Part shown: piece after piece, positions 5,861 through 36,990 of the stretch | Numbering within the stretch: position 1 is the first letter of the stretch | How the letters are laid out: every line of letters starts with the position of its first letter | NCBI GenBank assembly: GCA_017617655.1 | Contig: JAFZVU010000009.1 | Location: 1 to 47,884 of the forward strand | Direction of reading: 5' to 3' | Length of the DNA: 47,884 nucleotides | From: Bacteroidales bacterium | GTDB lineage: Bacteria > Bacteroidota > Bacteroidia > Bacteroidales > UBA932 | Made by a program: the position numbers and the translations under genes | The notes under the pieces: generated by a model | Databases searched by the model: none | Told to the model about the DNA's origin: nothing | What the model saw: only the letters and a program-made list of their open reading frames with translations

Positions 5861-8800
5861 TTATTCTTTGCCGGCCATGCGTTTGTAAGTGTTGAGCCTC
5901 CACTGGGCAAACTCCTGAGTGCGCTCGAAGAGTTCCTGAGCCTGCTCAGGGAAGGTCTTCTGGAGCGATGCGAAACGGACCTCACCCTTGAGGAAGTCCT
6001 GGAAGAGGCTCCAGTCGGGCTCCTTGCTGTCGAGGCTGAACGGGTTCTTGCCCTGCTCCTCGAGAGCCGGGTTGTAACGGTACAGATGCCAGTAACCGCA
6101 CTCGACGGCACGTTTTTCCTCGAGCTGGCTGTGTCCCATGCCGGCTTTCAGACCGTGGTTGATACAAGGTGCGTAGGCGATGATCAGTGACGGGCCGTCG
6201 TATGCCTCAGCTTCCTTGATAGCATTGAGGAACTGAGCCTGTGAGGCGCCCATAGCAACCTGGGCGACATATACATAGCCGTAGCTGATAGCCATCATGC
6301 CGAGGTCTTTCTTGCGAACCCTCTTACCTGAGGTGGCGAACTTGGCAACGGCGCCGGCAGGAGTTGACTTGGATGACTGTCCACCGGTATTTGAGTAAAC
6401 CTCGGTATCGAGCACGAGGACGTTTACGTTCTTGCCAGATGCAAGCACGTGGTCGAGTCCGCCGTATCCGATATCGTAACCCCAACCGTCACCACCGAAG
6501 ATCCACTGGCTGCGGGCAGGGATGAAGTTTTCGAGAGCGAGGAGCTGCTTGCAGGTGTCGCAGCCGCATTCTTTCATCAGAGGAACGAGCTTGTCGCATA
6601 CCTCGCGGGTGATTGCAGCGTCGTTGCGGTTCTCGAGCCACTGGGTGTAGAGAGCCTTGATCTCTGAAGAGCACTTCGGGCATTCCAGACCCTTGGTCAT
6701 GAGGTCTGCAACGGTAGCGCGGACTCTGTCAGAACCGAGCTTCATACCGAGACCGAACTCGGCGTTATCCTCGAACAGTGAGTTGTCCCATGCGGGGCCG
6801 TGGCCGGCAGCGTTGGTGCAGTAAGGAGAAGCGGGGAACGATGCTCCGTAGATTGAAGAGCAACCCGTTGCGTTAGATATCATCATGTGGTCGCCGAAGA
6901 GCTGGGTGATGGCCTTGATGTAAGGAGTCTCGCCGCAACCTGCGCAGGCGCCTGAGAACTCGAAGAGCGGCTGGCTGAACTGTGAGTTCTTGACATTCTG
7001 CATCTTCGAAGCCACGGTATCCTTGTAGCCGACCTTTGCGTGCAGGTAATCGAAGTTGGCCTGCTCGGCTTCCTGAGAATCCATAGACTGCATGCTGAGG
7101 GCCTTGTTGCCTTTCATGCCCGGGCATACGTCAACGCAGTTGCCGCAACCTGTACAGTCGTAAGGGCTCACCTGCATGGTGAACTTGTAAGCCTTGAAGG
7201 TGGCGTTGCCCTGGACGGTCTTGATGCCGGCGGGAGCTGCAGCAGCCTCTTCCTCTGTCATGAGGAACGGACGGATAGCAGCGTGAGGGCAGATGAATGC
7301 GCACTGGTTGCACTGGATACAGTTGGCGGGATCCCATGAAGGAACGGTGACGGCGATGCCGCGTTTCTCGTATGCTGCAGTGCCTGAAGGGATGGTACCG
7401 TCCACGAGGTCTTCAGAAGCGAAGGCGCTTACGGGCAGGTCGTTTCCGCACTGGGCGTTGACAATGTCAGCCACGTTGCGGATCCACTCGGGAGCCAGAC
7501 GGTTGAAGTTCGGGTTGACGAACTTGCCGGTAAGGTTCTTCCACTCGGCTGGAACCTCTACCTCGACATATTCTGCGCCGCGGTCTACGGCTGCGTAGTT
7601 CATCTTGACTACGTTCTCGCCTTTCTTGCCGTATGACTTGTCGATAGCTTTCTTCATATAGCCGACTGCCTCCTCGTAAGGGATGATGCCGGTGATCTTG
7701 AAGAATGCCGACTGGAGGATGGTGTTGGTGCGTCCGCCGAGGCCGATTTCGCCGGCGATCTTGGTAGCGTTGATTATGTAGAACTTGAGTTCCTTGCTGG
7801 CGATCTCCTTCTTCACGAAGTCAGGGATGCGCTTGAAGGTCTCCTCTACGCTCCACATGCTGTTGAGCAGCAGGGTGCCGCCCTTCTTGATGCCGCGGAG
7901 AACGTCGTACTTGGACAGATATGAAGGCACATGGCATGCCACGAAATCGGGAGTGGTCACCAGGTAAGGAGCCCTGATGGGAGTGTCACCGAAACGCAGG
8001 TGGCTGCAGGTGTATCCGCCTGACTTCTTTGAGTCATAGTCGAAATAGCCCTGGCAGTATTTGGGAGTGTGGTCGCCGATGATCTTGATGGTGTTCTTGT
8101 TGGCGCCGACTGTACCGTCAGAACCCAGACCGAAGAACTTGCACTCGTAGGTGCCGGCCTTGGCCAGGGAGATTTCCTCTTTCTGAGGCAGAGACTTGAA
8201 GGTCACGTCGTCGACGATGCCGATGGTGAAGTCGTTCTTCGGCTCCTTGCGCTCGAGGTTCTCGAATACTGAGAGGATCTGGGCGGGAGTGGTGTCCTTT
8301 GAAGACAGACCGTAGCGGCCGCCGACGATGGTGATGTCGTTGCGTCCGTAGAGGACTGACTTGACGTCGATGAGCAGAGGCTCGCCGTTTGCGCCGGGCT
8401 CTTTGGTGCGGTCAAGCACTGCGATGCGCTTAGCGCTCTTCGGAAGGGCGCGCAGGAAATACTTGGCTGAGAACGGACGATAGAGGTGTACGCTGATCAG
8501 ACCGCACTTCTTGCCCTTGGCTTGCAGGTAGTCGATGGTTTCCTTGATGGTCTCGCAGACTGAACCGATAGCGATTATGATGTTCTCGGCATCCGGGTCG
8601 CCGTAGTAGTCGAAAGGAAGGTGGTAGCGGCCGGTGAGAGAGCCGATCTCGCCCATGTAGCGAGCTACGATGTCAGGAACTTCCTCGTAGTACTTGTTGG
8701 AAGCCTCGCGGGCCTGGAAGTATACGTCAGGGTTCTGGGCGGTACCGCGGGTTACAGGCCTGTTGGGGTTGAGAGCCCTGCTGCGGAACCTTGCGAGAGC

Positions 8801-24747: not shown

Positions 24748-25272
24748 ATGTTCCGCAAACTTGTCAACGATGAGCTCGGCAGGATAAGCGTAGAGGAGTT
24801 CAAGACCGCTCCCAAGCAGGACGTAGTGGTCGTCCTCGACAATGTCCGCAGCCAGCACAACATAGGCTCTGCCTTCCGCAGCTGCGACGCCTTCCGCGTC
24901 AGCAAGCTCTTCCTCTGCGGCATCTGCGCGGTGCCGCCGTCTGCCCAGATCCACAAGTCGGCCCTGGGTGCGGAGTTCAGCATGGACTGGGAGTATTGCG
25001 AGAACACCATGGACGTGGTGGAGCGGCTGCGCGCCGAGGACTACGTCATAGTCAGCGTGGAGCAGGCGGAAGACTCCACTTCGCTGGAGCAGTTCAGCCG
25101 CGAGGCCGGCCGCAAATACGCCCTTGTCTTCGGCAATGAGGTGCACGGCGTGGCGCAGGACGTAGTCTCAGCCAGCGACGCCTGCCTCGAAATCCCCCAG
25201 TACGGCACAAAGCACTCCCTGAACGTCTCCGTCTCTATCGGAATCGTCCTCTGGGCGCTGCTGGGGCGCTGA
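24748..25272 (+). CDS. SpoU/TrmH-family RNA 2'-O-methyltransferase
   Basis: 174 residues from the ATG at 24748 (MFRKLVNDELGRIS). The three SPOUT motifs are present: LDNVRSQHNIGSAFRSCDAF (motif 1), YALVFGNEVHGV (motif 2) and LEIPQYGTKHSLNVSVSIGIVLW (motif 3), giving the knotted SAM-binding fold. Small size fits TrmH/TrmL-type tRNA methyltransferases rather than the longer rRNA enzymes, but the RNA target cannot be told from sequence. An upstream extension to 24682 lies in the divergent promoter region and is rejected. Confidence 0.9.
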   Translation: MFRKLVNDELGRISVEEFKTAPKQDVVVVLDNVRSQHNIGSAFRSCDAFRVSKLFLCGICAVPPSAQIHKSALGAEFSMDWEYCENTMDVVERLRAEDYVIVSVEQAEDSTSLEQFSREAGRKYALVFGNEVHGVAQDVVSASDACLEIPQYGTKHSLNVSVSIGIVLWALLGR

Positions 25273-25280
25273 CCGCCCCC

Positions 25281-25350
25281 GTGTCATCAGCCTTTAGCCC
25301 TGTGCCATCCTGAGCGCACCCCGTGTCATCCTGAGCGAAGCGAAGGATCT
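25281..25350. repeat. Degenerate copies of a TCATCCTGAGCGAAGCGAAGGATCT-type intergenic repeat
   Basis: Three successive partial copies: GTGTCATCAG (25281), TGTGCCATCCTGAGCGC (25300) and a full copy from 25323 to 25350 with inverted ATCCT...AGGAT. The full copy runs into the stop codon of the converging lipoprotein gene. From memory this repeat type is common in intergenic DNA of many bacteria; no search was run. Confidence 0.7.
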
Positions 25351-25993
25351 ATCGATCCAGAACTACCTCCACAAAATAGCCGATGTAGCTTGAATTCGTA
25401 TCAGAATTGAATGTAATTCCCTTTTCTGGCTTCATCTCCTTTCCGTCTATGACAACCTTGGTGCAAGCCGGGAAAAACTCGTAATTGCTGCCCTGGATGC
25501 CCGCCGTCCAGTAAGAGATTATTTCATGCACGGAATCGTCCCCGAAGATGACGGGACAGGTGAACTTGTATTTAAGATAATCGTGATGAGTGACGCCGCT
25601 GTCCATCACAAAGCCTCGGAAGTTAAGGTACCACTTTCCGTCGGGGCCGTATGTTCCATCAGCATTAGGAGTCTCCATGACATACTGCTCGCTGAACTTC
25701 GACATGGTCAAAGAAGCGCTGATATTTTCGGCCACCACTTCTGCCTTGGACAGCGTCAGATCGAGTGTATACTTTTCGGGATTGATCTCGCCGCGCCAGG
25801 CTGAGCTCGCATCAGTCTTGTAAACTTCCGCAGCAAGCGGAGCCGCAAACTCGTTCCCCTCCCGGTCAGTAAAACTTATATGCAGGAAGTAGCTATATTT
25901 ATTTTTAACAGGAATAATCGGACTGAACCAGTCGCAGGCAGTCACGGACAGGACCGTAACAACCAGTACAAATACAAATCTGAACCGTTTCAT
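25349..25993 (-). CDS. Lipoprotein of unknown function, paralogue 1
   Basis: 214 residues; signal MKRFRFVFVLVVTVLSVTAC with Cys20. Not a family I recognise, but it is clearly paralogous to the products at 33986-34723 and 34990-35592. Shared pieces are G-N-E/D-F/L-A-APL near residue 50, W-x-GEINPEKY-x-L-D (about 70), TCPVIFGDDSVHEIISYW (about 150), a Cys before GKE (about 185) and the C-terminal YFVEVVLDR. The last gene of the TonB receptor operon, 54 bases after a barrel gene, with a possible extra -7 box of its own in that gap. Probably a surface or outer-membrane-anchored partner of the small barrels. Confidence 0.8.
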   Translation of the reverse strand: MKRFRFVFVLVVTVLSVTACDWFSPIIPVKNKYSYFLHISFTDREGNEFAAPLAAEVYKTDASSAWRGEINPEKYTLDLTLSKAEVVAENISASLTMSKFSEQYVMETPNADGTYGPDGKWYLNFRGFVMDSGVTHHDYLKYKFTCPVIFGDDSVHEIISYWTAGIQGSNYEFFPACTKVVIDGKEMKPEKGITFNSDTNSSYIGYFVEVVLDR

Positions 25994-26014
25994 CTTTTCA
26001 GTTTTGGATTACTG

Positions 26015-26022
26015 CAAAGATA
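26015..26022 (-). promoter_or_regulatory. Possible internal -7 box before lipoprotein paralogue 1
   Basis: TATCTTTG on the minus strand, exact consensus, 21 bases before the ATG; no matching upstream box. Confidence 0.4.
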
Positions 26023-26047
26023 ATATGATTATCTCTATTTCATATCG

Positions 26048-26527
26048 TCAGAAGGTGAAGCCGACGGTGGCGCCGACGCCCCAGAGATTGGCCTGGATGC
26101 CGACCATAAGGTGCGGCAGCTGGCCGCCGAGATCGAAGTCGAATCCCAGCTTCTCGCTCAGGAAGATTGAGCTTTGTCCCCTGAAAATCCACATATACCC
26201 TATATCCGTCCCGAAATAGACTGAATGCTTGCCGGCTGCTCCCATCGGATAGTAATGGGTATAATCAATAAGCAGCGGTATTCCATATTGCATAGTCCCG
26301 TTTAATTTGAGCAATCCCGTCTGGAAACCCCAATAGTTTTCTCTGTTTCTGCGGCCTCCTATCGAAACGGTTGCACTCATCTGGCCAGGGTTCCAGTTGT
26401 ACCAGTCATATCTCAACATAGTCGTGAGCTGGAAATGCCTCTCATCGAAATGATTGTCATCGCCGGTCTGGGCGTAGAGACTGCCCGCCAACAGCAGAGC
26501 AGCCAGAGTCATCAATATCTTTTTCAT
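26048..26527 (-). CDS. Small outer-membrane beta-barrel protein, paralogue 1
   Basis: 159 residues; signal peptide MKKILMTLAALLLAGSLYAQ, alternating strands and a C-terminal ...GATVGFTF with terminal Phe, as in outer-membrane barrels. About 140 mature residues would make roughly eight strands. It shares YGIPLLIDYTHYYPMG, a LGFDFDLGG-type segment and the end GFTF with the products at 26544-27080 and 33435-33959. Function unknown. Sixteen bases after paralogue 2 in the same operon. Confidence 0.8.
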   Translation of the reverse strand: MKKILMTLAALLLAGSLYAQTGDDNHFDERHFQLTTMLRYDWYNWNPGQMSATVSIGGRRNRENYWGFQTGLLKLNGTMQYGIPLLIDYTHYYPMGAAGKHSVYFGTDIGYMWIFRGQSSIFLSEKLGFDFDLGGQLPHLMVGIQANLWGVGATVGFTF

Positions 26528-26543
26528 CGAGCTTCAGTTTTAG

Positions 26544-27080
26544 TTAGAAAGTAAATCCTATTGAGACTCCGTAACCCGGATAACTCAACAATACCCCGAT
26601 TTGCAGATGAGTGACATCGGCAATATTGAAATCAAATCCGTTCTTTACACAGACATAATATGCAAGGCTGGAAGAAGGCTCGACGGTAGAACCCCATCTC
26701 GTCTGGCCGCCGGAGAAATGGATTATATAACCGCCGCCTTCAACACCGGCGAAAAATGAATTCCGCTTCTTTTTGCCCATAGGGAAATAGTGGATGTAAT
26801 CAGCCAGCAAGGGTATTCCCGAATATTTGCCTGCGGTATCATTTATCTCATAGCTGGTGACAATGAATGCATATCCAGTCTGGAAACCGAGGTAATTCCC
26901 TCGGTTGAAACGGTATCCGGCTGTAGCATTGGCTGATAACTGTTTTCCGGACATCAATAGTTCCTGCTTATACGCCACTCCCCACTGTATACCCTTGACC
27001 TCTTCGGTCTGGGCGTATGCGCTGCCTGTCAGAAGCAGCATGGCCAAAATCAGCAATAAACGCTTCATATATATGTTCAT
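26544..27080 (-). CDS. Small outer-membrane beta-barrel protein, paralogue 2
   Basis: 178 residues; MKRLLLILAMLLLTGSAYAQTEEVKG follows a short MNIY extension, so the true start may be the ATG four codons in. Shared family pieces: TAGYRFNRGNYLGFQTGY, GIPLLADYIHYFPMG, NGFDFNIADVTHLQIGV and VSIGFTF. It closely resembles paralogue 3 (33435-33959), especially TAGYRFN-x-GNYLG and FDFNIADxTHLQ. The gene abuts the DUF4249 gene with no spacing. Confidence 0.8.
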   Translation of the reverse strand: MNIYMKRLLLILAMLLLTGSAYAQTEEVKGIQWGVAYKQELLMSGKQLSANATAGYRFNRGNYLGFQTGYAFIVTSYEINDTAGKYSGIPLLADYIHYFPMGKKKRNSFFAGVEGGGYIIHFSGGQTRWGSTVEPSSSLAYYVCVKNGFDFNIADVTHLQIGVLLSYPGYGVSIGFTF

Positions 27081-28112
27081 TTATGGATAAATAATTTTGC
27101 CGTCTTCGAAGTGAATCATCACATAGGCACGATCCCATCTTACTGGTATTTGGGTAAATGAGCCGAAAATACCCACTCCGCCGTGAATGTTGGTATATAC
27201 GTTATCCCTGATGTAAATAGAAGAAAGGTCATCGCTTACCTCCCCTTGATAATACTTGAAAGCCTCACACAGGTAACGGTCGTAATCGTCCGAAAGGGAG
27301 GCGAAATAAAGCACACCTTCTTTCCCTGACGGCTCCCGGGGAGAATCATCATTATAATTGTAATAATCTCCCCTGAACTTCCCGCCAACGGAAACCAGAG
27401 CCTTGGGATAGTCACTCTTCGGGAAACGCAGGAAGCGATGATGAAATACCTGCTGATATGTGCAGTATTCATCATAGGAACCCATATCTCCTGACATAGG
27501 CGTACCAGGAAAAGGCCAGTTTGAATCGGTATCCAACTCACCTGACACATTCAGGTCATCCACATAGGGATAATCAGTAGAAAGCTGTTTGACAGGTACA
27601 TGCTGGTTCTGTTCGGCATCATAGTTCTCCGCCCATGCCCAGACGGGGCGGGAAAGATTCAATCCATATTGCAAACCCCACTTGTCTCCATTTTTGGGTG
27701 GGTTAGGATATTCGGGCCTTTTCGTTACAGAAATATCGACCTCCGGCACTTCAGGCACAGTCTGCTCCGCCCATACAGGTTCGTGGCCGGGTACTGCTAC
27801 ATCAAGACGGTAACTGTGGCCGGTGAGCGGGGTATAATCAAGTTGCCAGAGACCTTCGCCGCGACGGTCGAAACGGCCGGCCTCACGGTTTTCGGTGAGA
27901 TCTGTAAGTACTGCAACAGCCTCTGTCACAAGGGGAGCCTCAGCCTGAGACGGGCCTTTGGTCCAGGACAGCTGCAACGTCTGCACAGAGTCCTGGCTGA
28001 GGATGCACGCCACCACCAGCAGCGGCTCTTCGTTCGCATCAAGGATAACATCCTTCACGCAGGAGCTGAGCCCTGTCGAAAGAACCAGTATAAAACATAG
28101 GAATTTCTTCAT
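27081..28112 (-). CDS. DUF4249-type lipoprotein
   Basis: 343 residues; lipoprotein signal MKKFLCFILVLSTGLSSC (Cys18). The sequence (DANEEPLLVVACILSQDSVQTLQLSWTKGPSQ, then YRLDVAVPGHEPVWAEQTVPEVPEVD) matches the DUF4249 family, a Bacteroidota group encoded beside TonB-dependent receptors. By analogy it may be the surface-exposed partner of the receptor, but its ligand is unknown. It follows the receptor gene by 11 bases and abuts a barrel gene. Confidence 0.85.
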   Translation of the reverse strand: MKKFLCFILVLSTGLSSCVKDVILDANEEPLLVVACILSQDSVQTLQLSWTKGPSQAEAPLVTEAVAVLTDLTENREAGRFDRRGEGLWQLDYTPLTGHSYRLDVAVPGHEPVWAEQTVPEVPEVDISVTKRPEYPNPPKNGDKWGLQYGLNLSRPVWAWAENYDAEQNQHVPVKQLSTDYPYVDDLNVSGELDTDSNWPFPGTPMSGDMGSYDEYCTYQQVFHHRFLRFPKSDYPKALVSVGGKFRGDYYNYNDDSPREPSGKEGVLYFASLSDDYDRYLCEAFKYYQGEVSDDLSSIYIRDNVYTNIHGGVGIFGSFTQIPVRWDRAYVMIHFEDGKIIYP

Positions 28113-28123
28113 CGCAGCAGTTT

Positions 28124-30145
28124 TTAGAATGTAATCCTCCAGCTAAAGTTCGGCATAATCGGCAACAGGGCGATCTCCTTCCAAGATTCGCTCTCCGCAT
28201 CAAAGTAGAGCATAAACGGATTGAAGTGATTGGTCACATTGCAGACACCCACATTGACACTGTGCTCCACACGTCCGGTGGTGAAGTTCTTCTGCCAGCC
28301 GAGGTCCAGGCGCAACACTGTCGGCATGTGGTAGTTGTTGACTCCCGAGAAGTATTTCGCAGTGAACGAATCATCCATATATGGGAGTTGGTAGGTTACT
28401 GCCTCTCCGTTCTCCCAGTGGCCGCTCTGCAGGATCATAGTGGCCGAGAAGCCTTTCCACTGCAGGGTCGCGTTCAGCATGTGACGGCGGTCGAAACGGG
28501 CGTGGAAAGGCGCGCCGTCATAGAACGATGGGAAGTTTTCGCGAGTGGTCTTCGAAAGCGTGTAGGATGCCCTCGCATACCAGTCCCCATGCTGGAATTC
28601 ATAGAGAGTCTCCAATCCGTATGAGCGTCCGTCGCCCAGTTCGACGTGCTCAGCCCATCCGGCCAGGCCGCCGCTGAAAAGTTCCTGCGAATACTTGTAG
28701 TAAACGAGGTTGTTCATCATCTTGTAGAATCCGCCTACCGAGAGGCTGTGGTCGCCGAAACGGCCGGACAGGCCCGCTCCGGCCTGCAGAGACTTTTCCG
28801 GCAGCACACTTTCGACTGTCGGCACAATCAGGTCCAGCGACCATCCGACCGGCATTCCCTCAAGGGTGTGGTAGTACTGTACCAGACGGTCAAAAGTGGC
28901 TTCAAGAGCCAGATGCGGAGTGAAAGTCCATTTGACGGCAAGGCTTGCTTCCGGGTCTACTCGGCTGCCTCTTCCGAGATTCTCGCTTGTCAGCGGGACG
29001 TAGTCCTTGTGATGATAATAATTGCCGCGCAGAACTGCCTTGACGGATATCTTGTCCGGGATATTATAGCTTGCCTGCACCCAGGGAGTTGCAAGGATTG
29101 TGTTGGTCTTCCTCATATTCTCCCCTACCTGTCCGGGCGCGAACTGGGCGTAGCGGACAGTGAAGCCTTCATCGAGCACGAACGGGCCGTCAAACAAATG
29201 GTGAAATTTGGACTGCAGGCTGTATTCCTTCAGGCCCGAACTCAGCGACAGATTGTTCCGGGTCCCGTGATACACCTTGTCCTGATTCTGGATGCTCCCG
29301 TAGTTGTTGTATGCAGCCGTCACGTCAAAACGAGTGATGTCGCCCCGCCAATGGTACTGCACTATTCCGATTATATTGTGCCATCCCATAGCTTCGTTCG
29401 AGTTCTTAGACATACTGAAGCTGTAATGGTCCTGGCTGGCGAGGACAGACGCGGTAGCATAGCTGACGTTATTGATTCGGAAGTTGATCTTGCCATAGAC
29501 ATCTCCTACGAAGGCGCCGAAGTTCTCCAGGCCGCCAAGCTTTCCGGGGAGAAGCCCTTTGACTGCCTGATATTCCAGAGGGAGCGGCGACACTCTGGCT
29601 GAGACTATATAGTTGCGTCCAACCCTGTCGTCGCCTTCTATGCCTGCGCTTACCAGGAAGTTGTTCAGCGCGAAGCTCCATTTATGGTTGCCGTCGGGCT
29701 GGCGTGTGACGACTCGAAGATGCGAGGCGGTGAAGTTGCTCTCGTCACCGTCGAAACCACCCTTGCTCAGTTCGGCACTCTCTATAACATCTGTAGGTAC
29801 GAGGGTAGTCAGGCCCAGGATGTGGGAATAGCCGTAGACCGGCACTCCGTCCAGAGTGAAAAGGTTGTTGCCTGAGCTGCCACCACGCACATACATAGCA
29901 GTAGTGCCGTCGGCTCCGGTGGTCACACCGGGAAGGCTCTGCGCCCAGCGGATCGGGTCTCCTTCTCCTACCGGCGAGACAATGCTTCTTATGCCTTCGA
30001 TACCTGTATGGAGGTGTCCCAGACTCGCCTCTATGCGACGGAAATCAGTCTTTATGGCTGCGTCCAGCGTATCGAGCCACGACGGCTCCTGTGCGGCGCA
30101 AGTCAAAGAGACGAGAATCAGTAAAAGCGTCGCAATCTTTTTCAT
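28124..30145 (-). CDS. TonB-dependent receptor
   Basis: 673 residues with signal peptide MKKIATLLLILVSLTCAAQ. A plug domain is visible (about 45-140: IRSIVSPVGEGDPIRWAQSLPGV, GTTAMYVRGGSSGNNLFTLDGVPVYGYSHILGLTTLVP, DVIESAELSKGGFDG), followed by a barrel that ends ...MPNFSWRITF with terminal Phe. It lacks the N-terminal carboxypeptidase-like domain common in SusC-type receptors and is shorter. It belongs to the DUF4249-associated type. First gene of a five-gene operon and preceded by the GACGTATT-N14-GTTATA element. Ligand unknown. Confidence 0.9.
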   Translation of the reverse strand: MKKIATLLLILVSLTCAAQEPSWLDTLDAAIKTDFRRIEASLGHLHTGIEGIRSIVSPVGEGDPIRWAQSLPGVTTGADGTTAMYVRGGSSGNNLFTLDGVPVYGYSHILGLTTLVPTDVIESAELSKGGFDGDESNFTASHLRVVTRQPDGNHKWSFALNNFLVSAGIEGDDRVGRNYIVSARVSPLPLEYQAVKGLLPGKLGGLENFGAFVGDVYGKINFRINNVSYATASVLASQDHYSFSMSKNSNEAMGWHNIIGIVQYHWRGDITRFDVTAAYNNYGSIQNQDKVYHGTRNNLSLSSGLKEYSLQSKFHHLFDGPFVLDEGFTVRYAQFAPGQVGENMRKTNTILATPWVQASYNIPDKISVKAVLRGNYYHHKDYVPLTSENLGRGSRVDPEASLAVKWTFTPHLALEATFDRLVQYYHTLEGMPVGWSLDLIVPTVESVLPEKSLQAGAGLSGRFGDHSLSVGGFYKMMNNLVYYKYSQELFSGGLAGWAEHVELGDGRSYGLETLYEFQHGDWYARASYTLSKTTRENFPSFYDGAPFHARFDRRHMLNATLQWKGFSATMILQSGHWENGEAVTYQLPYMDDSFTAKYFSGVNNYHMPTVLRLDLGWQKNFTTGRVEHSVNVGVCNVTNHFNPFMLYFDAESESWKEIALLPIMPNFSWRITF

Positions 30146-30173
30146 GTTATAGCATTGGCATTGTGTCTTATAT

Positions 30174-30201
30174 TATAACGGACAAAACACCAAAATACGT
30201 C
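30174..30201 (-). promoter_or_regulatory. Putative alternative-sigma promoter of the TonB operon
   Basis: On the minus strand GACGTATT (30201-30194), 14 bases with TTTT at spacer positions 7-10, then GTTATA (30179-30174), 28 bases before the ATG. The same bipartite element precedes the ECF sigma gene and the lipoprotein gene at 34990-35592. No TAnnTTTG box is evident here. Confidence 0.75.
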
Positions 30202-30261
30202 TTCATTAAGATGTATTTTTCAGAAAAAGTAGCAATTGTGCCGGAAATGAGCCGATTATCT

Positions 30262-31698
30262 CTATTTCTTGGCAGCGGGATGCTTCACTATCTTCCACCC
30301 TATCGCTGCCATCAGGATTGACATGAAGGGCGAGATTATGTTGAAGAAGCAGAAGGGGGCGTAGACCAGCGTCGGGACTGAAAGGATGGTGGCCTGGGTC
30401 ATTCCGCAGCTGGACCACGGTACGAGGGGCGAAGTGACGGTGGCGGAGTCTTCGACGCTGCGGCTCAGCAGGCGCGGCTCATATCCGTCCTTTTCGTAGG
30501 TTTCCCTGTAGATGTTCGAAGTGAGGATTATGGAGAGGTACTGGTCGGAGACTATGCCGTTGAGGGCCGTTCCGGTCACCACGGTGGATGCCACAAGGCC
30601 TGTGCGGGTGCGGGTGAACGGAGTCATCACCCTGGCCAGGTCGGCAATCATGCCGCTGGCCCTCATGCAGGCCCCGAAGCACATCGCGCAGATTATCAGG
30701 AATACTGTGTTCAGCATTCCCACCATACCCCGGGAGGTCACAAGCATGTCGACATCGGCATTGCCGGTAGCTATGGAAACAGTGTTGTAGATAGTTTCGG
30801 CCACGCCGGAGAACATTATCCTTGCCCTGCTGCCGTCAGTCACGCCCTCGCCGATGGTGGCGATAATGTCGGGCTGGAATATCAGCGCAGCGATGGCGGC
30901 GGTGAGGGTCGACAGCGCCAGCACCAAAATAGCCGGCAGCTTCTTCCATATCATCAGCACCGTCAGCGCCGGGACTATCATCAGCCAAGGCGTTATGTGG
31001 AAGTTCTCAGCAAGCACACTGGAGTAGACGCCGATCTGCCCTTCTTCAGTTCCGCTGTGGGACAGTCCCAGGATGGTGAAGATCACGAGGGTGATTATTA
31101 TCGAAGGGACCGTCGTGAGCATCATGTAGCGGATGTGGGTGAACAGGTCGACTTTGTTGAACGACGAGGCCATGACGGTGGTGTCCGACAGGGGGGAAAT
31201 CTTGTCGCCGAAGTAGGCTCCGGAGATTATGGCGCCGGCCGTTGCCGCGTCGCTGAAGCCTTCGGCCCGGCCGATGCCGAGCAGCGCCACTCCTATCGTA
31301 GCTATGGTGGTCCATGAAGAGCCTGTCATCAGGGAGACTATTGCGCAGATCACGCAGGATGTCAGAAGGAACACCTTGGGGCTGATTATTTACAGGCCGT
31401 AGCAGATGAAGGCTGGCACCACGCCGCTGGCCATCCATGTGCCGGAAATCGCTCCGATCAGCAGCAGGATTACAATCGCCATCGACACGTCCCCTACTCC
31501 TTCCGCTATTCCCTTCTCAAATACTTTCCAGGGAGTCTTGTAGACAGTCATGGACAGCAGTATGCACACTCCGGCCGCCACCAGCAGCGACACCTGCGAG
31601 GCCCCGATTATGGAGTCAGCCCCGTAAATCGCGATGTCCAGCGCAAGAAGCGCCATCAACACCACCAGCGGCACAAAGGATAGTAAGGTGCGTTTCAT
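30262..31698 (-). pseudogene. nhaC: NhaC-type Na+/H+ antiporter gene with one in-frame stop
   Basis: The frame from the ATG at 31698 reads ...SGVVPAFICYGL, then TAA (31392-31390), then continues in the same frame IISPKVFLLTSCVICAIVSLMTGSSWTTIATIGVALLGIG to a TAG at 30262. The join is exactly the family sequence, with the stop at a position where Lys (AAA) would fit, so one base change explains it. The whole product would have 478 codons, the usual NhaC length, with about 12 membrane helices. The downstream part carries the conserved GAYFGDKISPLSDTTVMASS. No frameshift or other damage is seen, so the lesion is recent or a sequence error. Confidence 0.85.
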
Positions 31699-31716
31699 TG
31701 TCTCAGCGTCTGCCCG

Positions 31717-31748
31717 CAAAGTTAACACTTACCGCCACCTTTCACAAG
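31717..31748 (-). promoter_or_regulatory. Promoter of nhaC
   Basis: TAACTTTG (31724-31717) is an exact -7 box, 18 bases before the ATG. CTTG (31748-31745), 20 bases upstream, is a partial upstream box and lies inside the 15-base direct repeat that borders island B. Confidence 0.6.
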
Positions 31749-31750
31749 AG
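31736..31750. repeat. 15-bp direct repeat, left border of island B
   Basis: CACCTTTCACAAGAG, identical to 32638-32652. Here it overlaps the nhaC promoter. Confidence 0.75.
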
Positions 31751-31770
31751 CTCGTACAGCGGAGGCTGGA

Positions 31771-31838
31771 GGGTTATCCTCGGCGAAGCGAGGAGGGCCT
31801 TCCCCAGAGCCCCCCGCAGCGCCGCCGGGAGATAACCC
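31771..31838. repeat. Nested stem with 54-bp core, outer arms GGGTTAT/ATAACCC
   Basis: Core 31778-31831 begins CCTCGGC and ends GCCGGGAG. It is the exact reverse complement of 32441-32494 over all 54 bases, whereas the outer arms differ entirely. Confidence 0.85.
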
Positions 31839-31894
31839 GCTCCAAGCCCTTTCCACTAGCCCCTTTCCAGCCCCCTGCAAACAAAACACTTAAA

Positions 31895-31929
31895 GAGGTT
31901 ATCCTCGGCCCCCGCCGGGAGATAACCTC
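31895..31929. repeat. Short nested stem, outer arms GAGGTTAT/ATAACCTC
   Basis: Same inner frame CCTCGGC...GCCGGGAG as the 54-bp core element but with only CCCC as loop. The stem is continuous (15 pairs) apart from one bulged A. Confidence 0.8.
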
Positions 31930-31933
31930 AGAT

Positions 31934-31963
31934 GTTTTCCTTGCCTTCCGGGCTGGAGAAAAC
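31934..31963. repeat. Short nested stem, arms GTTTT/AAAAC
   Basis: GTTTTCCTTGCC-TTCC-GGGCTGGAGAAAAC, a diverged relative with inner CCTTGCC...GGGCTGGAG in place of CCTCGGC...GCCGGGAG. Confidence 0.55.
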
Positions 31964-31985
31964 TTCACGTCTCTCAGCAATAGCC

Positions 31986-32027
31986 GTCTCAGAATGAAAA
32001 AAACTGCCCATTCTTTCATTCTAAGAC
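31986..32027. repeat. Palindrome with 20-nt centre, arms GTCTCAGAATG/CATTCTAAGAC
   Basis: One C-A mismatch in the arms. Centre 31997-32016 is AAAAAAACTGCCCATTCTTT, with TGCCCAT at the same place as in the copy at 32163-32200. Confidence 0.8.
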
Positions 32028-32057
32028 ACGAAAACCCACCGATTCATGGAAACACCT

Positions 32058-32099
32058 GTCTCAAAATGGAAAAACCAGCCACTTTTTTCATTCTGAGAC
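32058..32099. repeat. Palindrome with 20-nt centre, arms GTCTCAAAATG/CATTCTGAGAC
   Basis: One A-C mismatch. Centre 32069-32088 is GAAAAACCAGCCACTTTTTT, which itself extends the stem (17 pairs in all) and keeps GCC at centre positions 10-12. Confidence 0.8.
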
Positions 32100-32162
32100 A
32101 TAAAAATGAATCTGGGAGAGTTTCAGAATGAATGGAGACAGGCCGTCTATCTGCCGGATGGC

Positions 32163-32200
32163 CACAGAATGTACCGGAATGCCCATCTGTTCATTCTGTG
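32163..32200. repeat. 9-20-9 palindrome, arms CACAGAATG/CATTCTGTG
   Basis: Perfect nine-base arms; centre TACCGGAATGCCCATCTGTT. Confidence 0.85.
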
Positions 32201-32233
32201 TCCTCAAACCAAGGTTTTTCGGCCCAAAACAGG

Positions 32234-32273
32234 CCACAGAATGGCTGTAGAGCCTGTTTGATTCATTCTGTGG
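32234..32273. repeat. 10-20-10 palindrome, arms CCACAGAATG/CATTCTGTGG
   Basis: Perfect ten-base arms; centre GCTGTAGAGCCTGTTTGATT, sharing GCCTGTTTG with copy A2 of island A. Confidence 0.85.
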
Positions 32274-32276
32274 AAC

Positions 32277-32602
32277 AAAAATGAGTCTGGAAGCGGGAGG
32301 ATGGGAAGAGTATTCTTTTGGCTGGGGGTGAAGCTGCGAGACTGGCGCCTGCAGGCGCTAGCGGAAGCCGTGAGTGCAGCATGAGCTGATAGCAGGCTGC
32401 AGCGGCGGGGTTTGGGGTAGCGCCCCAGTAAAGAAGTTTTCTCCCGGCGGCGCTGCGGGGGGCTCTGGGGAAGGCCCTCCTCGCTTCGCCGAGGAAAACT
32501 TCTTGGACGGAAGCTCCTCCGGCCGCGGTGGAGATGAGTTTATTTCCGGCCAGAATAGCGAGCTCGGCCTGACGGCTCGCTATTTCCGGCCAGAATAAAC
32601 TC
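32277..32602 (+). repeat. Compound palindromic element, island B copy
   Basis: Begins AAAAATGAGTCTGG as in island A, contains the perfect palindrome GCGCCTGCAGGCGC (32345-32358), a nested stem with arms AAGAAGTTTT/AAAACTTCTT (32431-32504) around the 54-bp core, and ends in a double stem with outer arms GAGTTTAT/ATAAACTC (32535-32602) and inner ATAGCGAGC/GCTCGCTAT. A third copy of the head alone is at 32102-32123. Confidence 0.8.
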
Positions 32603-32637
32603 CTTTGGGAGGCCGGCATACTTGTCGGCCGCTGACA

Positions 32638-32652
32638 CACCTTTCACAAGAG
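32638..32652. repeat. 15-bp direct repeat, right border of island B
   Basis: CACCTTTCACAAGAG; it contains the stop and last two codons of the sigma-factor gene read on the minus strand. Confidence 0.75.
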
Positions 32653-33171
32653 TTTCTTGCGGAGCCAGGCGCGGGCATGGCTGAGCTGGGAGCGGGAGCC
32701 GCCCTCCGAAATCGAGAGCATGCCGGCAATCTCCTCATGGGAGTAGCCTTCTATCACATAGAGGTTGAAAACGGTGCGAAAGCCGTCCGGCATGGAGTTC
32801 ACAAGTTCGAGGATTTCGTCTGCGCCCATCTTCTCGAGAGTGTTGCTGTGCGTCATCTGCATCGCCTGCGAGTCCTCGATGTTGTCGGAATCCTTCAGGG
32901 CGTCGTTGCGGCGCAGCTGCATCAGAGCCGTATTCACGAACAGCCGCCTCGCCCACCCCTCGAATGAACCCTCGCCTTTATAAGAGCCTATCTTCTCGAA
33001 CAGCCTCACGAACCCGTCCTGCATGACGTCCTTCGCCGCCTCCCGGTCCTTCATGTACCTCTGGCAGACGGCAAGCATCGCAGGAGCCAGCTTGTCGTAG
33101 AGTTCCCTCTGCGCTCTGGGCTCGCGCCTGCGGCATCCTTCAATTAGAGACTCGAGCTTGTTCATAGCCAT
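32644..33171 (-). CDS. ECF-type RNA polymerase sigma factor
   Basis: 175 residues (173 if the ATG at 33165 is used). Region 2 is at about 10-85 (ELYDKLAPAMLAVCQRYMKDREAAKDVMQDGFVRLFEKIGSYKGEGSFEGWARRLFVNTALMQLRR) and region 4 at about 110-170 (ILELVNSMPDGFRTVFNLYVIEGYSHEEIAGMLSISEGGSRSQLSHARAWLRKKL). Region 3 is absent, as in ECF factors. No anti-sigma (FecR-like) gene adjoins it. Upstream is the GACGTATT-N14-GTTATA element shared with two envelope operons, which suggests it transcribes itself and them. Its last codons form part of the direct repeat bordering island B. Confidence 0.93.
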   Translation of the reverse strand: MAMNKLESLIEGCRRREPRAQRELYDKLAPAMLAVCQRYMKDREAAKDVMQDGFVRLFEKIGSYKGEGSFEGWARRLFVNTALMQLRRNDALKDSDNIEDSQAMQMTHSNTLEKMGADEILELVNSMPDGFRTVFNLYVIEGYSHEEIAGMLSISEGGSRSQLSHARAWLRKKLL

Positions 33172-33213
33172 GGACTATTCCTTCTCCACCTGCGGATATA
33201 CATCCAGCATTTA

Positions 33214-33241
33214 TATAACACCGAAAAGTCCGGAATACGTC
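33214..33241 (-). promoter_or_regulatory. Putative autoregulated promoter of the sigma gene
   Basis: GACGTATT (33241-33234), 14 bases with TTTT at spacer positions 7-10, GTTATA (33219-33214), 42 bases before the upstream ATG. A second box GACGTAAT lies 32 bases further up (33273-33266) without a GTTATA partner. Confidence 0.75.
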
Positions 33242-33310
33242 AAGCCAGAAGCAAAAAATAATTGAATTACGTCAGGACTTGCATCTGCTACGCCAGTCTG
33301 CGCCGGCAGT

Positions 33311-33345
33311 GCTCCTACCGTCCCCAAAACTCGGACGGTGGGAGC
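33311..33345. repeat. 13-bp hairpin, first of a tandem pair
   Basis: GCTCCTACCGTCC / GGACGGTGGGAGC with one T-G pair, nine-base loop CCAAAACTC, followed on the plus strand by GTTTTATCCCCCTTTTT. Confidence 0.75.
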
Positions 33346-33362
33346 GTTTTATCCCCCTTTTT

Positions 33363-33397
33363 GCTCCTGCCGTCCCGGAAAGACGGACGGCGGGAGC
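33363..33397. repeat. 13-bp hairpin, second of a tandem pair
   Basis: GCTCCTGCCGTCC / GGACGGCGGGAGC with the T-G pair at the same place and a nine-base loop CGGAAAGAC. It differs from the first in the stem only by an A-T to G-C pair change. It lies downstream of the barrel operon but has no T run on that strand. Confidence 0.75.
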
Positions 33398-33434
33398 ACT
33401 AGTGTTGCACGAGAAGGGAAGTACGTATCGGCAC

Positions 33435-33959
33435 TCAGAAGGTGAAGCCGGCAGTGATGCCGAGGCCCAGGGGGAAGAGCCAGAAGGCTCCGAGCTGCAG
33501 ATGGGTGAAGTCGGCGATGTTGAAGTCGAAGCCGGCTTTTGCGCTGATGTATGGGTCAACGCCAGTGCGTGTCCTCGGTTCTATTATCCATTGTGTGCCA
33601 TCGTATGATCTGCCGCTTTCCTGAACCATCATATAATTGCCGCCGAGTTCCCCTCCCACAATAAAAGAATGCCTCCTCGATGCGCCAAGCGGAATATAAT
33701 TGATATAGTCCAGCCGCACAGGGATGCCTCGGAACTGGGTCTCAACGCCAGACCCCATGAGATACCCGCTCATCAAGCCCAGATAATTGCCCTGATTGAA
33801 GCGGTAGCCTGCTGTCGCATTTCCGCTGATCCAGTAAGAGCCTATTACTCCCTCCATCCTTGCCGACACCCCAAACTGGAAGCCCCTGTACTCATCAGTC
33901 TGAGCCCATGCGCTGCATGCCCAAACCAGCAATATAGCAATCACAAAAAAACGTTTCAT
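33435..33959 (-). CDS. Small outer-membrane beta-barrel protein, paralogue 3
   Basis: 174 residues, signal peptide MKRFFVIAILLVWACSAWAQ, C-terminal LGITAGFTF with terminal Phe. Shared pieces with the barrels at 26048-27080: TAGYRFNQGNYLGLMSGY, GIPVRLDYINYIPLG, AGFDFNIADFTHLQLGAF. The last gene of the second barrel/lipoprotein operon, 26 bases after lipoprotein paralogue 2. Its 5' part is duplicated in the fragment at 34813-34965. Confidence 0.8.
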   Translation of the reverse strand: MKRFFVIAILLVWACSAWAQTDEYRGFQFGVSARMEGVIGSYWISGNATAGYRFNQGNYLGLMSGYLMGSGVETQFRGIPVRLDYINYIPLGASRRHSFIVGGELGGNYMMVQESGRSYDGTQWIIEPRTRTGVDPYISAKAGFDFNIADFTHLQLGAFWLFPLGLGITAGFTF

Positions 33960-33985
33960 TCCCGTTAATAGAAGACTGTACTGAC

Positions 33986-34723
33986 TTATTTGTCTAGAAC
34001 TACATCGACAAAATAGCTATAATAATCTTTAAAATCCGTTGAATTAACAACAACTCTCTTTACTGCGACTTCTTTTCCATCAAACGACGCCCTTATACAT
34101 TCTGGATACAGATACCATGTTCTTGCATCCTGAAAATCGTATGAATTATCCGAATCTTCAGCCCAATAAGCAACCAGTTCATGAACCGAATTGTCACCGA
34201 ATATCGTTGGGCTTGATATCTTGTATATAATATGATCCTGTACAGGTTCTTCTATAATTGTATCATAGCTATCATCGGCATAATGAAACATTGGCGTACC
34301 ATATTCATTACTGAGATAATAATAACCATCTCCTTCCGTATATACTTCCTGTCCAAAATTGGATGTCAGCTGATAATTATTATCATACTTTGCCATTTTA
34401 AAATACGGACCCGTTTTCTTATCGAATTCCGGTTTTGGTGTGCTGATATACTGCATTTCATGAGGTGGATTTGAGAGAGTAATATCCAGCCCATACTTGT
34501 CAGGGTTAATCTCACCATACCAGTAGGAATGATCATTAGCTGGTTTCCACCTTTCATCTCCAAGCGGAGCGACTAAGTCCTTACCTATATTATCGCAGAA
34601 GTTGATTGATATACAATACCTGTATGAGGTGTCTTTTGTTTTTCCTCCGGGTGCTAACTTGCCACAGGAAGACAGTGCTAGCGCTATTAACACCAGCGAC
34701 ATAACTTTATTAATTGTTTTCAT
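33986..34723 (-). CDS. Lipoprotein of unknown function, paralogue 2
   Basis: 245 residues; signal MKTINKVMSLVLIALALSSC (Cys20). Family pieces: IGKDLVAPLGDERWKP, YWYGEINPDKYGLDITLS, ISSPTIFGDNSVHELVAYW, YPECIRASFDGKEVAVKR and YSYFVDVVLDK. It has an extra Tyr/Asp/Glu-rich stretch in the middle (about 105-165) absent from paralogue 1. Base composition is clearly AT-richer than the flanking core genes, a sign of relaxed constraint or transfer. It lies between the truncated barrel fragment (89 bases upstream) and barrel paralogue 3. Confidence 0.8.
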   Translation of the reverse strand: MKTINKVMSLVLIALALSSCGKLAPGGKTKDTSYRYCISINFCDNIGKDLVAPLGDERWKPANDHSYWYGEINPDKYGLDITLSNPPHEMQYISTPKPEFDKKTGPYFKMAKYDNNYQLTSNFGQEVYTEGDGYYYLSNEYGTPMFHYADDSYDTIIEEPVQDHIIYKISSPTIFGDNSVHELVAYWAEDSDNSYDFQDARTWYLYPECIRASFDGKEVAVKRVVVNSTDFKDYYSYFVDVVLDK

Positions 34724-34812
34724 AATTATCTATAATCTATTAATTGCCAAAAATTAAGGTTCTTCAATATAAATATTTTGTCTTGAATATTGGTAGTTTC
34801 CATTACCGCTGT

Positions 34813-34965
34813 CTACATTATTTGATGCGAACCACCCGTCGTGACTACTCCCTCCATCCTTGCCGACACCCCAAACTGGAAGCCCCTGTACTCATCAGTC
34901 TGAGCCCATGCACTGCCTGTCAAAAGCAGCAGCACGGCAATCATTAAAATGCGTTTCTTAACCAT
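34813..34965 (-). pseudogene. Truncated barrel gene, 50 codons
   Basis: Starts MVKKRILMIAVLLLLTGSAWAQ, then TDEYRGFQFGVSARMEGV identical to barrel paralogue 3, then runs out of the family sequence (VTTGGSHQIM) to TAG. About 65 bases at the DNA level (around 34845-34910) are identical to the 5' part of 33435-33959, so the duplication or gene conversion is recent. The signal peptide resembles paralogue 2 more than paralogue 3, so it may be a mosaic. It keeps the operon position between two lipoprotein genes. Confidence 0.8.
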
Positions 34966-34989
34966 GGATATTACCTTTCAACAACAAAG

Positions 34990-35592
34990 TCACTTGTCAA
35001 GGACAATATTCACGAAATATACATGACGATCATCCATCTTTTCTATGGCAAGCTCCTTTCCTTCAAATACTGCTTTTGTGCATCCCAGAAATGTACTATG
35101 TCCTGTTCTTTCTTTGGCATACCAATATGTCTCTATAATGTGCTCGGCATCATCACCGAATATTTCCGGACAAGTGAATCTATATGTCAGCTGATTATCC
35201 AACTTAAATGATTCTTTCTCGCTTACATTCATATAGACATTCATCAACAAATAACCAGCATAATCTTCGCTATTTTCCTCCATCCAAAAATATGGTCCCT
35301 TAAGCCTTTCCCGCTCTTCCATTTTCTGTTCTTTCCAAACTGTATTATCAGAGACTATGCTCAAGTCATATCGCTCAGGATTGATAGTACCATGCCATTT
35401 GGTTGAGCGTTCATTTACCGGTATCCACTGTTCGTCTCCCAATGGAGCCACCAGATCATTGCCTGAAGAATCCGCGATGCCGATTCCTATAAACTGATAA
35501 TAGTAATAGGGAGGTAGTGTATCTAGTACTGTACACCCGGAAATAAATACAAAAAGGAGCCCCAGAACCAGGGCATATCGGATTGTTCTCAT
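34990..35592 (-). CDS. Lipoprotein of unknown function, paralogue 3
   Basis: 200 residues from the ATG at 35592 (MRTIRYALVLGLLFVFISGC, Cys20); starts further up (35628, GTG 35631) would bury the signal peptide. Family pieces: SGNDLVAPLGDEQWIPV, KWHGTINPERYDLSI, FTCPEIFGDDAEHIIETYW, LGCTKAVFEGKELAIEK, VYFVNIVLDK. First gene of the second barrel/lipoprotein operon, behind the GACGTATT-N14-GTTATA element. A TAACTTTG box (35617-35610) also precedes it, so it might also use the housekeeping sigma. AT-rich compared with the core genes. Confidence 0.8.
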   Translation of the reverse strand: MRTIRYALVLGLLFVFISGCTVLDTLPPYYYYQFIGIGIADSSGNDLVAPLGDEQWIPVNERSTKWHGTINPERYDLSIVSDNTVWKEQKMEERERLKGPYFWMEENSEDYAGYLLMNVYMNVSEKESFKLDNQLTYRFTCPEIFGDDAEHIIETYWYAKERTGHSTFLGCTKAVFEGKELAIEKMDDRHVYFVNIVLDK

Positions 35593-35659
35593 TTTCGTTA
35601 TGGCTATTACAAAGTTATGAATTACCATCACAAGTTGCCTAATTAGAAGTTGCTATTTA

Positions 35660-35687
35660 TATAACTTCAAAAAAACAGAAATACGTC
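35660..35687 (-). promoter_or_regulatory. Putative alternative-sigma promoter of the second barrel/lipoprotein operon
   Basis: GACGTATT (35687-35680), 14 bases with TTTT at spacer positions 7-10, GTTATA (35665-35660); 67 bases before the chosen ATG. Confidence 0.75.
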
Positions 35688-35747
35688 TTCGGGTTGACAA
35701 CTATTTTATATAATGATGACGGAAAAAGAAACCACACCTGGGCAAAC

Positions 35748-35775
35748 AAAAAGAGGTGACCCGAAGGCCACCTCT
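35748..35775 (-). terminator. Terminator of the rnf operon
   Basis: AGAGGTG (35752-35758) pairs with CACCTCT (35769-35775); on the minus strand the hairpin is followed by TTTTTG. It lies 22 bases after the rnfA stop. Confidence 0.88.
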
Positions 35776-35797
35776 AACATAATTCTGAAGAGTGCAT

Positions 35798-36397
35798 TTA
35801 TACCATGCCGCTGAAGCCCATGAAGGCCATGGCCATGATGCCGGCGGTGATGAGGGCGATGGGGACGCCCTGAAATGCCTTAGGCACTTTAGAGATCTCG
35901 AGCTGCTCGCGGATGCCGGCGAAGAGGATGATGGCAAGGCCGAAGCCGATGGCGCTCGCGATGGCGAAGACTACCGACTGGCCGAGGTTCAGCATGTGGG
36001 CCTCACCGCCGAAGCTGAACTGCTTCTGCACTACCATCAAGGCGACGCCGAGCACGGCGCAGTTGGTGGTGATAAGGGGCAGGAAGATGCCGAGGGCCTG
36101 ATAGAGCGACGGGCTGATCTTCTTGATGATTATTTCAACCATCTGCACGAGGCCGGCGATCACGAGGATGAAGCAGACCGTCTGGAGGTACTCGACGCCC
36201 AGAGGCACGAGCACATAGTATTGCAGCAGATAGGTGACGCAGGTAGCAAGGGCCATGACGAAGGTCACTGCAGCGGACATGCCCAGCGCGGTGCTCACTT
36301 TCTTAGAGACACCGAGGAACGGGCACACGCCCAGGAACTGTGACAGCAGGATGTTGTTTACAAAGACTGCCGAAATTATGATCAGTATATATTCCAT
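35798..36397 (-). CDS. rnfA: Electron transport complex subunit RnfA
   Basis: 199 residues, six expected membrane helices, no soluble domain. Begins [31 protein letters not shown], the conserved RnfA/NqrE start, with the paired Cys region ([16 protein letters not shown]) that holds a shared iron-sulfur centre with RnfE in known structures. Part of the membrane ferredoxin:NAD+ oxidoreductase that pumps Na+ or H+. Last gene of the operon, eight bases after rnfE. Confidence 0.96.
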
Positions 36398-36405
36398 GGC
36401 CTGCG

Positions 36406-36990
36406 TTATTTAGTTGTCAATTTGCGGAAAAGAACCATCAGATAGCCCAGCACGATGAAGGCGCCGGGAGCGAGCACGAAGAGCAACATTCCGTCGGGAG
36501 CCATGAACTTCCAGCCGAATGCGCTGCCGCTGCCGAGAATCTCGCGGACGAGACCTACGACAGTCAGAGAGAGTGTGAATCCGAGGCCGATGCCCAGACC
36601 GTCACAAGCCGAGTCTATCACGCCGTTCTTGTTGGCAAAAGCCTCGGCGCGGCCCAGCACGATGCAGTTCACTACGATCAGCGGGATGAAGAGGCCCAGA
36701 GTCTCATAGAGAGAAGGCAGATAGGCCTGCATCAGCAGCTGCACTATAGTCACGAAAGCCGAGATTATGACGATGTACGACGGGATGCGCACCTTGTCGG
36801 GGATGAAGCGGGCCACCGCCGAAATCACGATGTTGGAAAGGATGAGTACGCACATAGTCGCAACGCCCATTCCCATACCGTTGATGGCAGAAGTGGTGGT
36901 ACCCAGCGTGGGGCACATACCCAGCACCAGGGCGAACGTAGGGTTGTCCTTGACAAGACCCTTGGTTATCAGTTTCCAGCGGTTGCTCAT
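36406..36990 (-). CDS. rnfE: Electron transport complex subunit RnfE
   Basis: 194 residues, membrane protein homologous to RnfA. Seen: [36 protein letters not shown] and [19 protein letters not shown], both diagnostic. Forms the membrane core with RnfA. Its start overlaps the rnfG stop by four bases (ATGA). Confidence 0.96.

Follow-up and report, generated by a model that had tools for sequence, protein, structure and literature searches.

A candidate ECF-type promoter class for surface proteins in a rumen Bacteroidales genus and a possibly cross-wired sigma factor duplicate

Introduction

The closest described relatives of the system examined here, an extracytoplasmic function (ECF) sigma factor gene and two surface-protein operons that share a candidate promoter in an uncultured rumen bacterium, are two circuits that pair a sigma factor with an anti-sigma protein. 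In EcfO/Reo of Bacteroides fragilis and Phocaeicola vulgatus, the sigma gene adjoins that of an anti-sigma whose outer membrane part is a barrel, and it is induced along with a regulon that contains surface lipoproteins, NigD among them (PMC9308784, PMC13114119); a motif for EcfO is stated to be in print (PMC7366714). For Das1/Dma1 and Das2/Dma2 of Bacteroides thetaiotaomicron (ECF21), Dma is described as having an anti-sigma domain at the N-terminus, then a membrane helix with a long linker after it, and a barrel at the C-terminus. The orphan ECF sigma bt_2569 is reported to be raised in both dma mutants, and the word "motif" is absent from the main text (PMC13088901).

The stretch analyzed (the window) is contig C43 (JAFZVU010000009.1, 47,884 nucleotides) of GenBank assembly GCA_017617655.1, here called G000, which amounts to 2.2 Mb in 88 contigs and is 84% complete. 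Comparisons were made over a genus set of 26 genomes (G numbers, with C for contigs and L for loci). An earlier reading made from the sequence alone had proposed that the ECF sigma at 32644..33171 (minus strand) drives its own gene and two operons through a shared promoter, GACGTATT-N14-GTTATA. Our analysis supports a promoter class of this kind and points away from that sigma as its reader.

The window sigma, S1b, is an orphan duplicate of S1a, an EcfO/Das-like sigma. S1a and its partner have the same layout as EcfO/Reo and share the barrel layout of the Dma proteins, but S1b differs in having no adjacent anti-sigma, in which it parallels the orphan bt_2569. The regulon proposed here also holds surface lipoproteins, as EcfO's does, but a family that we call A2 recurs in it instead of NigD, and the NigD_C domain was found in 0 of the 26 genomes. 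Targets and boxes differ from those of Das/Dma, and the radical SAM/lipoprotein system TIGR04133/TIGR04134, for which a literature search by these two model names found no paper, is placed here under an ECF-type box. Circuits of the Das/Dma and EcfO/Reo kind with lipoprotein targets are known; what is new, as far as the literature searched goes, is the box together with its targets and the putatively cross-wired duplicate.

Three sites in the window and the box across the genus

The box GACGTATT-N14-GTTATA occurs without mismatch at 30201-30174, 33241-33214 and 35687-35660, all on the minus strand and all with 14-base spacers, just as had been read from the letters. Base composition would lead us to expect about 0.0002 exact sites in the window, and the remaining three of the six matches in our pattern scan each carry 3 mismatches. 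Each box is on the same strand as its gene and upstream of it: the one at 30174..30201 lies 28 nt before the ATG of the TonB receptor gene, the one at 33214..33241 lies 42 nt before the ATG of the sigma gene, and the one at 35660..35687 lies 67 nt before the likely ATG (35592) of the lipoprotein operon, or 28 nt before an in-frame GTG. No TAnnTTTG element overlaps any of the three, which had also been claimed, and the 250 nt that precede each of the first two window genes contain none; one copy, TAACTTTG, is found beyond the third box, about 42 nt downstream of it and 25 nt ahead of the lipoprotein ATG. All three sites do carry TTTT at spacer positions 7-10, as reported earlier, yet only 6/16 exact-class and 11/62 broad-class sites of the genus have it; the features that generalise are the 8-N14-6 geometry and a second box with GTT as its core. 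Spacer position 13 is often a G (47/58 sites). A search of window positions 25000-36500 for RNA families gave no matches.

The whole G000 assembly holds seven exact sites, every one of them N14 with spacers of 12-16 allowed, and the reversed control pattern gave one. When spacers of 0-30 were allowed across the 26 genomes, 16 of 17 matches fell at N14 and one at N0, and the control gave 21 matches spread over all 31 spacers (Poisson 5e-17 for the N14 excess). The broader class, G[AC][AC]GTATT-N14-GTT[AT][AT][AT], has 64 sites in the genus vs 5 for its control. Sixty-two of these were classified, as a duplicate motif within one locus was merged and the site on G019:C4 (L100), which lies 31 nt from a gene for a DUF4249-like lipoprotein, was handled separately. 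A lipoprotein (by its lipobox), sigma, radical SAM or signal-peptide gene was called by rule within 120 nt of 45 of the 62, vs about 4% of random positions, and 10 of the 13 ruled "other" precede lipoprotein or exported-protein genes by eye. Seven sites look like chance or distant matches (L096, L105, L107, L108, L111, L101 and L104), the last two with a lipoprotein start 244 and 263 nt away. The box is non-palindromic, points towards its gene and mostly lies 6-111 nt before the start. The fixed spacing, the orientation and the genome- and genus-wide set before lipoprotein, DUF4249, radical SAM and sigma genes support the view, put forward in the sequence-only reading, that these sites behave as a class of ECF-type promoters serving a surface-protein regulon.

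Predicted regulon

In addition to the TonB/DUF4249 operon, the second lipoprotein operon and the window sigma gene, exact sites in G000 precede an ECF sigma gene on C38, a gene for a TIGR04133 radical SAM protein on C40 and lipoprotein genes on C37 and C55, while two one-mismatch sites on C27 each precede a lipoprotein gene, one of which encodes a serpin (PF00079, E 8e-97). The genes first named downstream of the window boxes mostly hold up, with the TonB plug, DUF4249 and ECF sigma identified by Pfam and the third box followed by an operon of lipoproteins and small proteins, but the label "barrel" for the small proteins is by eye only. Family A2 lipoproteins (20 aligned members, no Pfam domain) are encountered repeatedly, both at box sites and within sigma operons.

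The radical SAM protein of C40 scores above the TIGR04133 cut-off, while the other exported protein of its operon matched no model; the boxed pair in G004 exceeds both NCBIfam cut-offs (TIGR04134/TIGR04133). Boxed genes for a radical SAM protein or companion lipoprotein are seen in several species (L054, L058, L114, L125, L126, L127, L139 and L155), with the models matched in C40 and G004 and the others assigned by eye, and they occur also in G016, where S3 is present and the clade search found no S1 or S2. Serpin-domain lipoproteins are among the targets at L049 and L120 (the two tested, PF00079, E about 1e-96); L123, L138, L134, L140 and L157 are listed with them, and serpin-like proteins trail several S3/anti-sigma pairs by eye.

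Sigma clade S1 and its own upstream element

The window sigma matches PF04542 and PF08281 over the Pfam cut-off, corresponding to Sigma70 regions 2 and 4, and no region 3 family is listed. Its clade, S1, was found in 11 of the 26 genomes, and the other 15 have nothing above 39% identity. S1 consists of two branches, S1a and S1b, of which S1b is present in G000 (the window), G001, G014 and G019 and forms a single tree group with weak support (79/43); the tree omits proteins of 140 residues or fewer, such as the S3 fragment of G003, and a more distant sigma on C10. No anti-sigma gene adjoins S1b in the window, G014 or G019, nor in the 373 visible bases downstream in G001. S1a, by comparison, overlaps the next gene, whose large product resembles an anti-sigma and has a likely membrane helix, then a long linker and finally a barrel. 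Pfam places the OMP_b-brl_2 barrel domain in 35/35 aligned partners, a selection of those identified; the G000 contig includes just the first codons of its partner gene.

The S1a genes have an upstream element of their own. TGCA[AG] occurs upstream of 66 of the 80 named Bacteroidota loci retrieved with the window sigma, vs 20 in shuffles, commonly as TGCAAC...TGCATC, and TGCAGCATT-N12-TGCATC is found exactly upstream of S1a in eight genomes of the genus. In seven of these it lies 17 nt before the start, and the first 60 bases in G000 equal those in G001. We refer to the TGCARCATT-N12-TGCATC type as the T class and to the GACGTATT type as the G class; it is possible that the T class is already in print as the EcfO motif. 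A genus scan for the T class with up to one mismatch gave 42 sites vs 4 for the control, some of them before tadA and a pnuC-like gene and others apparently by chance.

Among these, TGCAACGTT-N12-TGCATC lies 68-257 nt before tadA in four species (L046 17872, L121 11284, L293 and L296), and tadA is a possible S1 target outside envelope functions. A housekeeping promoter for S1a (TAAATTTG) was considered and dropped, as the same stretch holds the TGCAGC...TGCATC common to other families, though both could be true. Upstream of NigD genes from other genera, 3 of about 30 stretches look like GCAAG-AT-N14-[AT]TT[AT]TA by eye; the de novo count did not exceed that of shuffles, and a similar pattern was found in 0 of the 80 sigma upstream stretches.

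The protein sequence of S1b has changed little where it is expected to read DNA. The window S1b, whose sigma4.2 helix is EGGSRSQLSHAR, and the S1a of G000 have an identical region 2.4 core and an identical helix core, with one residue adjoining the latter different; a helix residue is changed from R to H in the S1b of the window, G001 and G014 and not in that of G019. All three S1b genes with readable upstream DNA (G000, G001 and G019) lie under a GTTATA-type box, in G019 with GCAGTATT as the first box.

Sister clades S2 and S3

Two further clades carry the G-class box at most of their own genes. S2 comprises two genes on C38 of G000 and three more from as many other genomes, and in 5/5 of them G[AC][AC]GTATT-N14-GTTATA lies 6-7 nt before the ATG. 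This would place the transcript start at or beside the ATG (L046:72-105 and 6241-6275; L121, L131 and L136), so the S2 transcripts would be leaderless.

S3 has 15 genes in 14 genomes of the genus, with the gene on G014:C151 placed by clade-search figures only and that on G003:C73 by a fragment. Ten of the genes are directly boxed and two (G009 and G022) lie behind a boxed lipoprotein gene; no box was seen upstream of those of G005 and G020 C95, and the G014 gene fell outside the check. At the ten boxed genes, GACGTATT-N14 is followed by GTTTAT in six and otherwise by GTTTAG, GTTTAC, GTCTAT or GTTATA. Beyond the genus, six genomes from two genera contain S3 orthologs (61-73% identity), and GACG[TC]AT[TA]-N14-GTT stands upstream of 6/6, found by pattern match in two and read by eye in four. 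Both S2 and S3 are adjoined downstream by genes for large proteins with C-terminal sequences that are similar by eye, and lipoprotein genes then follow. Barrel models matched 6/6 S3 partners and 2/4 S2 partners at E 0.01, with 2/10 over the Pfam cut-off, and the one S2 partner compared with NCBIfam gave no match.

Which sigma factor reads the box

Co-occurrence ties the box class to S3 more closely than to S1. By the strict pattern, the GACGTATT class is present in 13/14 S3-positive vs 0/12 S3-negative genomes (p 2.7e-6), and in 9/11 S1-positive vs 4/15 S1-negative genomes (p 0.015). G015 is box-positive only through a GTTTAG second box, a variant searched in that genome alone, and strict counts were therefore used; with G015 included the figures are 14/14 vs 0/12 for S3 and 9/11 vs 5/15 for S1. 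The four S1-negative genomes with the class are G005, G009, G016 and G020 (G015 would be the fifth), and G010 and G011 have S1 and lack the class.

The DNA-reading helices point the same way. From 143 distinct sigmas we used 93 (46 lacked a classed box, a contig end truncated 1, and no helix was found in 3 more). Where the sigma4.2 helix has an R/K-[S/T]-Q motif, the box upstream of the gene is T-class for 67 sigmas and G-class for 3; with other helices it is G-class for 22 and T-class for 1 (Fisher 4e-17), suggesting that sigma4 helix class predicts box class across the usable sigmas. All three R/K-[S/T]-Q sigmas with a G-class box are S1b, from the window, G001 and G019. The simplest reading would be that the S1b gene came under a foreign promoter and the protein kept its old preference.

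We therefore propose, and consider on balance probable, that an S2/S3-type sigma reads GACGTATT-N14-GTTATA and drives the operons together with S1b, and that S1b relays to S1-type promoters. The first step follows from sequence associations and the relay from the helix-box rule, while envelope or outer membrane stress is suggested as the signal by analogy with EcfO/Reo. Under such stress a Dma-like anti-sigma of the dual-membrane type would let go of the S2/S3-type sigma, and the freed sigma would transcribe its own sigma/anti-sigma operon, the surface lipoproteins, the TonB/DUF4249 operon, the serpin lipoproteins and the radical SAM/lipoprotein system, as well as S1b with no anti-sigma next to it. 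Because the S1-type DNA-reading residues are kept, S1b should act on TGCARCATT-N12-TGCATC promoters, including that of the S1a/anti-sigma operon, and the signal would pass between envelope-stress pathways. A wider version of this proposal, which we offer as plausible and hold only tentatively, is that a code from helix to first box exists in the dual-membrane anti-sigma pathways of Bacteroidota, and that it has been rewired in some lineages by putting an anti-sigma-free EcfO/Das-like duplicate under the box of a sister pathway as a relay past the brake.

If correct, this gives a concrete candidate promoter for the dual-membrane anti-sigma circuits of uncultured rumen Bacteroidales along with a likely target list, and with a simple rule from helix class to box class, many such sigma regulons could be predicted from genome sequence by itself. 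The cross-wired sigma also points to a way in which links between sister stress pathways may arise, and it is a warning that the promoter of a sigma gene is not necessarily read by that same sigma.

Several observations weigh against this proposal. At their own genes the second box is GTTATA for S1b (3/3) and S2 (5/5) and something other than GTTATA for 9/10 boxed S3 genes, a pattern that places S1b alongside S2 rather than S3. The GTTATA subclass is found in 8/11 S1-positive vs 0/15 S1-negative genomes (p 1e-4), all eight of which also have S3. G001, G002 and G004 have GTTATA sites and no S2 in the clade search, so the reader there would be S3, S1 or another sigma, and G000 has 11 Sigma70_r2 genes to choose from. 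The barrel matches of the S2 partners are weak and below the Pfam cut-off, with none at all in 2/4. For the relay, T-class sites beyond S1a are few (tadA and the pnuC-like gene), and the specificity of S1b may have changed outside the core. The exact pattern is not enriched beyond the genus, where 5/73 genomes have one match each, two of them N14, which does not exceed the reversed control. The possibility raised earlier that the motif sits at random places in the genome is contradicted within the genus, where sites are gene-directed and N14-fixed. It is important to note that the genomes are related, meaning that counts throughout are not independent and the p-values overstate the evidence.

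The original model, in which the window sigma reads GACGTATT-N14-GTTATA and transcribes itself and the two operons in positive feedback, is in our judgment unlikely, although it has real points in its favour. ECF factors commonly transcribe their own gene, the three readable S1b genes do lie under the box class (G019 in the form of GCAGTATT), and within the genus GTTATA is restricted to S1-positive genomes. However, S1a carries a different upstream element, which weakens the case for autoregulation by the window sigma, and with its T-type helix S1b would be an exception to the helix-box association. Furthermore, the clade search found no S1b in seven S1-positive genomes (G002, G003, G004, G007, G010, G011 and G022), and GTTATA sites are present in five of these (G002, G003, G004, G007 and G022), from assemblies that are 60-86% complete. 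The box class itself follows S3, being present in four S1-negative genomes and absent from S1-positive G010 and G011.

It is also conceivable, but quite improbable, that specificities overlap, with S1a, S1b, S2 and S3 all reading related first boxes in an 8-N14 geometry and several envelope-stress sigmas sharing one regulon. The T and G classes can be written with the same geometry (GCARCATT-N14-CATC and GACGTATT-N14-GTTA), GCAGTATT is intermediate between their first boxes, and apparent orthologs swap GTTATA for GTTTAT or GTTTAA between species, as seen for the lipoprotein of C55, G022 and G014 and the radical SAM protein of C40 and G019. Such sharing fits poorly with the sigma genes, where each helix class goes almost exclusively with one box class. 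That the box is an operator for a DNA-binding regulator, which a box known here from sequence alone might be, is hard to credit given its non-palindromic, gene-oriented placement close to starts, the missing TAnnTTTG upstream of the first two window genes and its presence at ECF sigma genes in three genera.

Other features of the window

All genes of the two operons are on the minus strand. The first operon begins with the TonB-dependent receptor-like outer membrane protein, which has a plug domain (28124..30145, PF07715), and the DUF4249 protein is encoded next (27081..28112, PF14054). It is followed by two small exported proteins that look barrel-like by eye and have no Pfam match, at 26544..27080 (related to the one at 33435-33959) and 26048..26527, and by a lipoprotein without a Pfam domain at 25349..25993 that belongs to the recurring family A2. 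Another A2 lipoprotein is the first gene of the second operon (34990..35592), and a truncated 50-codon remnant (34813..34965), a third A2 lipoprotein (33986..34723) and a small exported protein, again barrel-like by eye and without a Pfam match (33435..33959), come after it. None of the three small barrel-like proteins matched Pfam at E 0.01, and an origin of these free-standing proteins as copies of the anti-sigma barrel found no support (hhalign probability 9.5%, no clear BLASTP match).

The remnant at 34813-34965 resembles the gene at 33435-33959, with which it has 66 identical bases, and a full-length copy stands in the same place in G001, so the operon in G000 seems to have been duplicated and rearranged. 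Between the first operon and the sigma gene, 30262-31728 holds a Na+/H+ antiporter-like gene (NhaC-type, by eye) that is split by one in-frame stop near 31390, either genuine or a sequencing error. A 64-nt inverted repeat lies downstream of the sigma gene; its two arms (31773-31836 and 32436-32499) are 97% complementary and 599 nt apart, and they enclose four degenerate copies of a 28-nt repeat that contains CATTCT.

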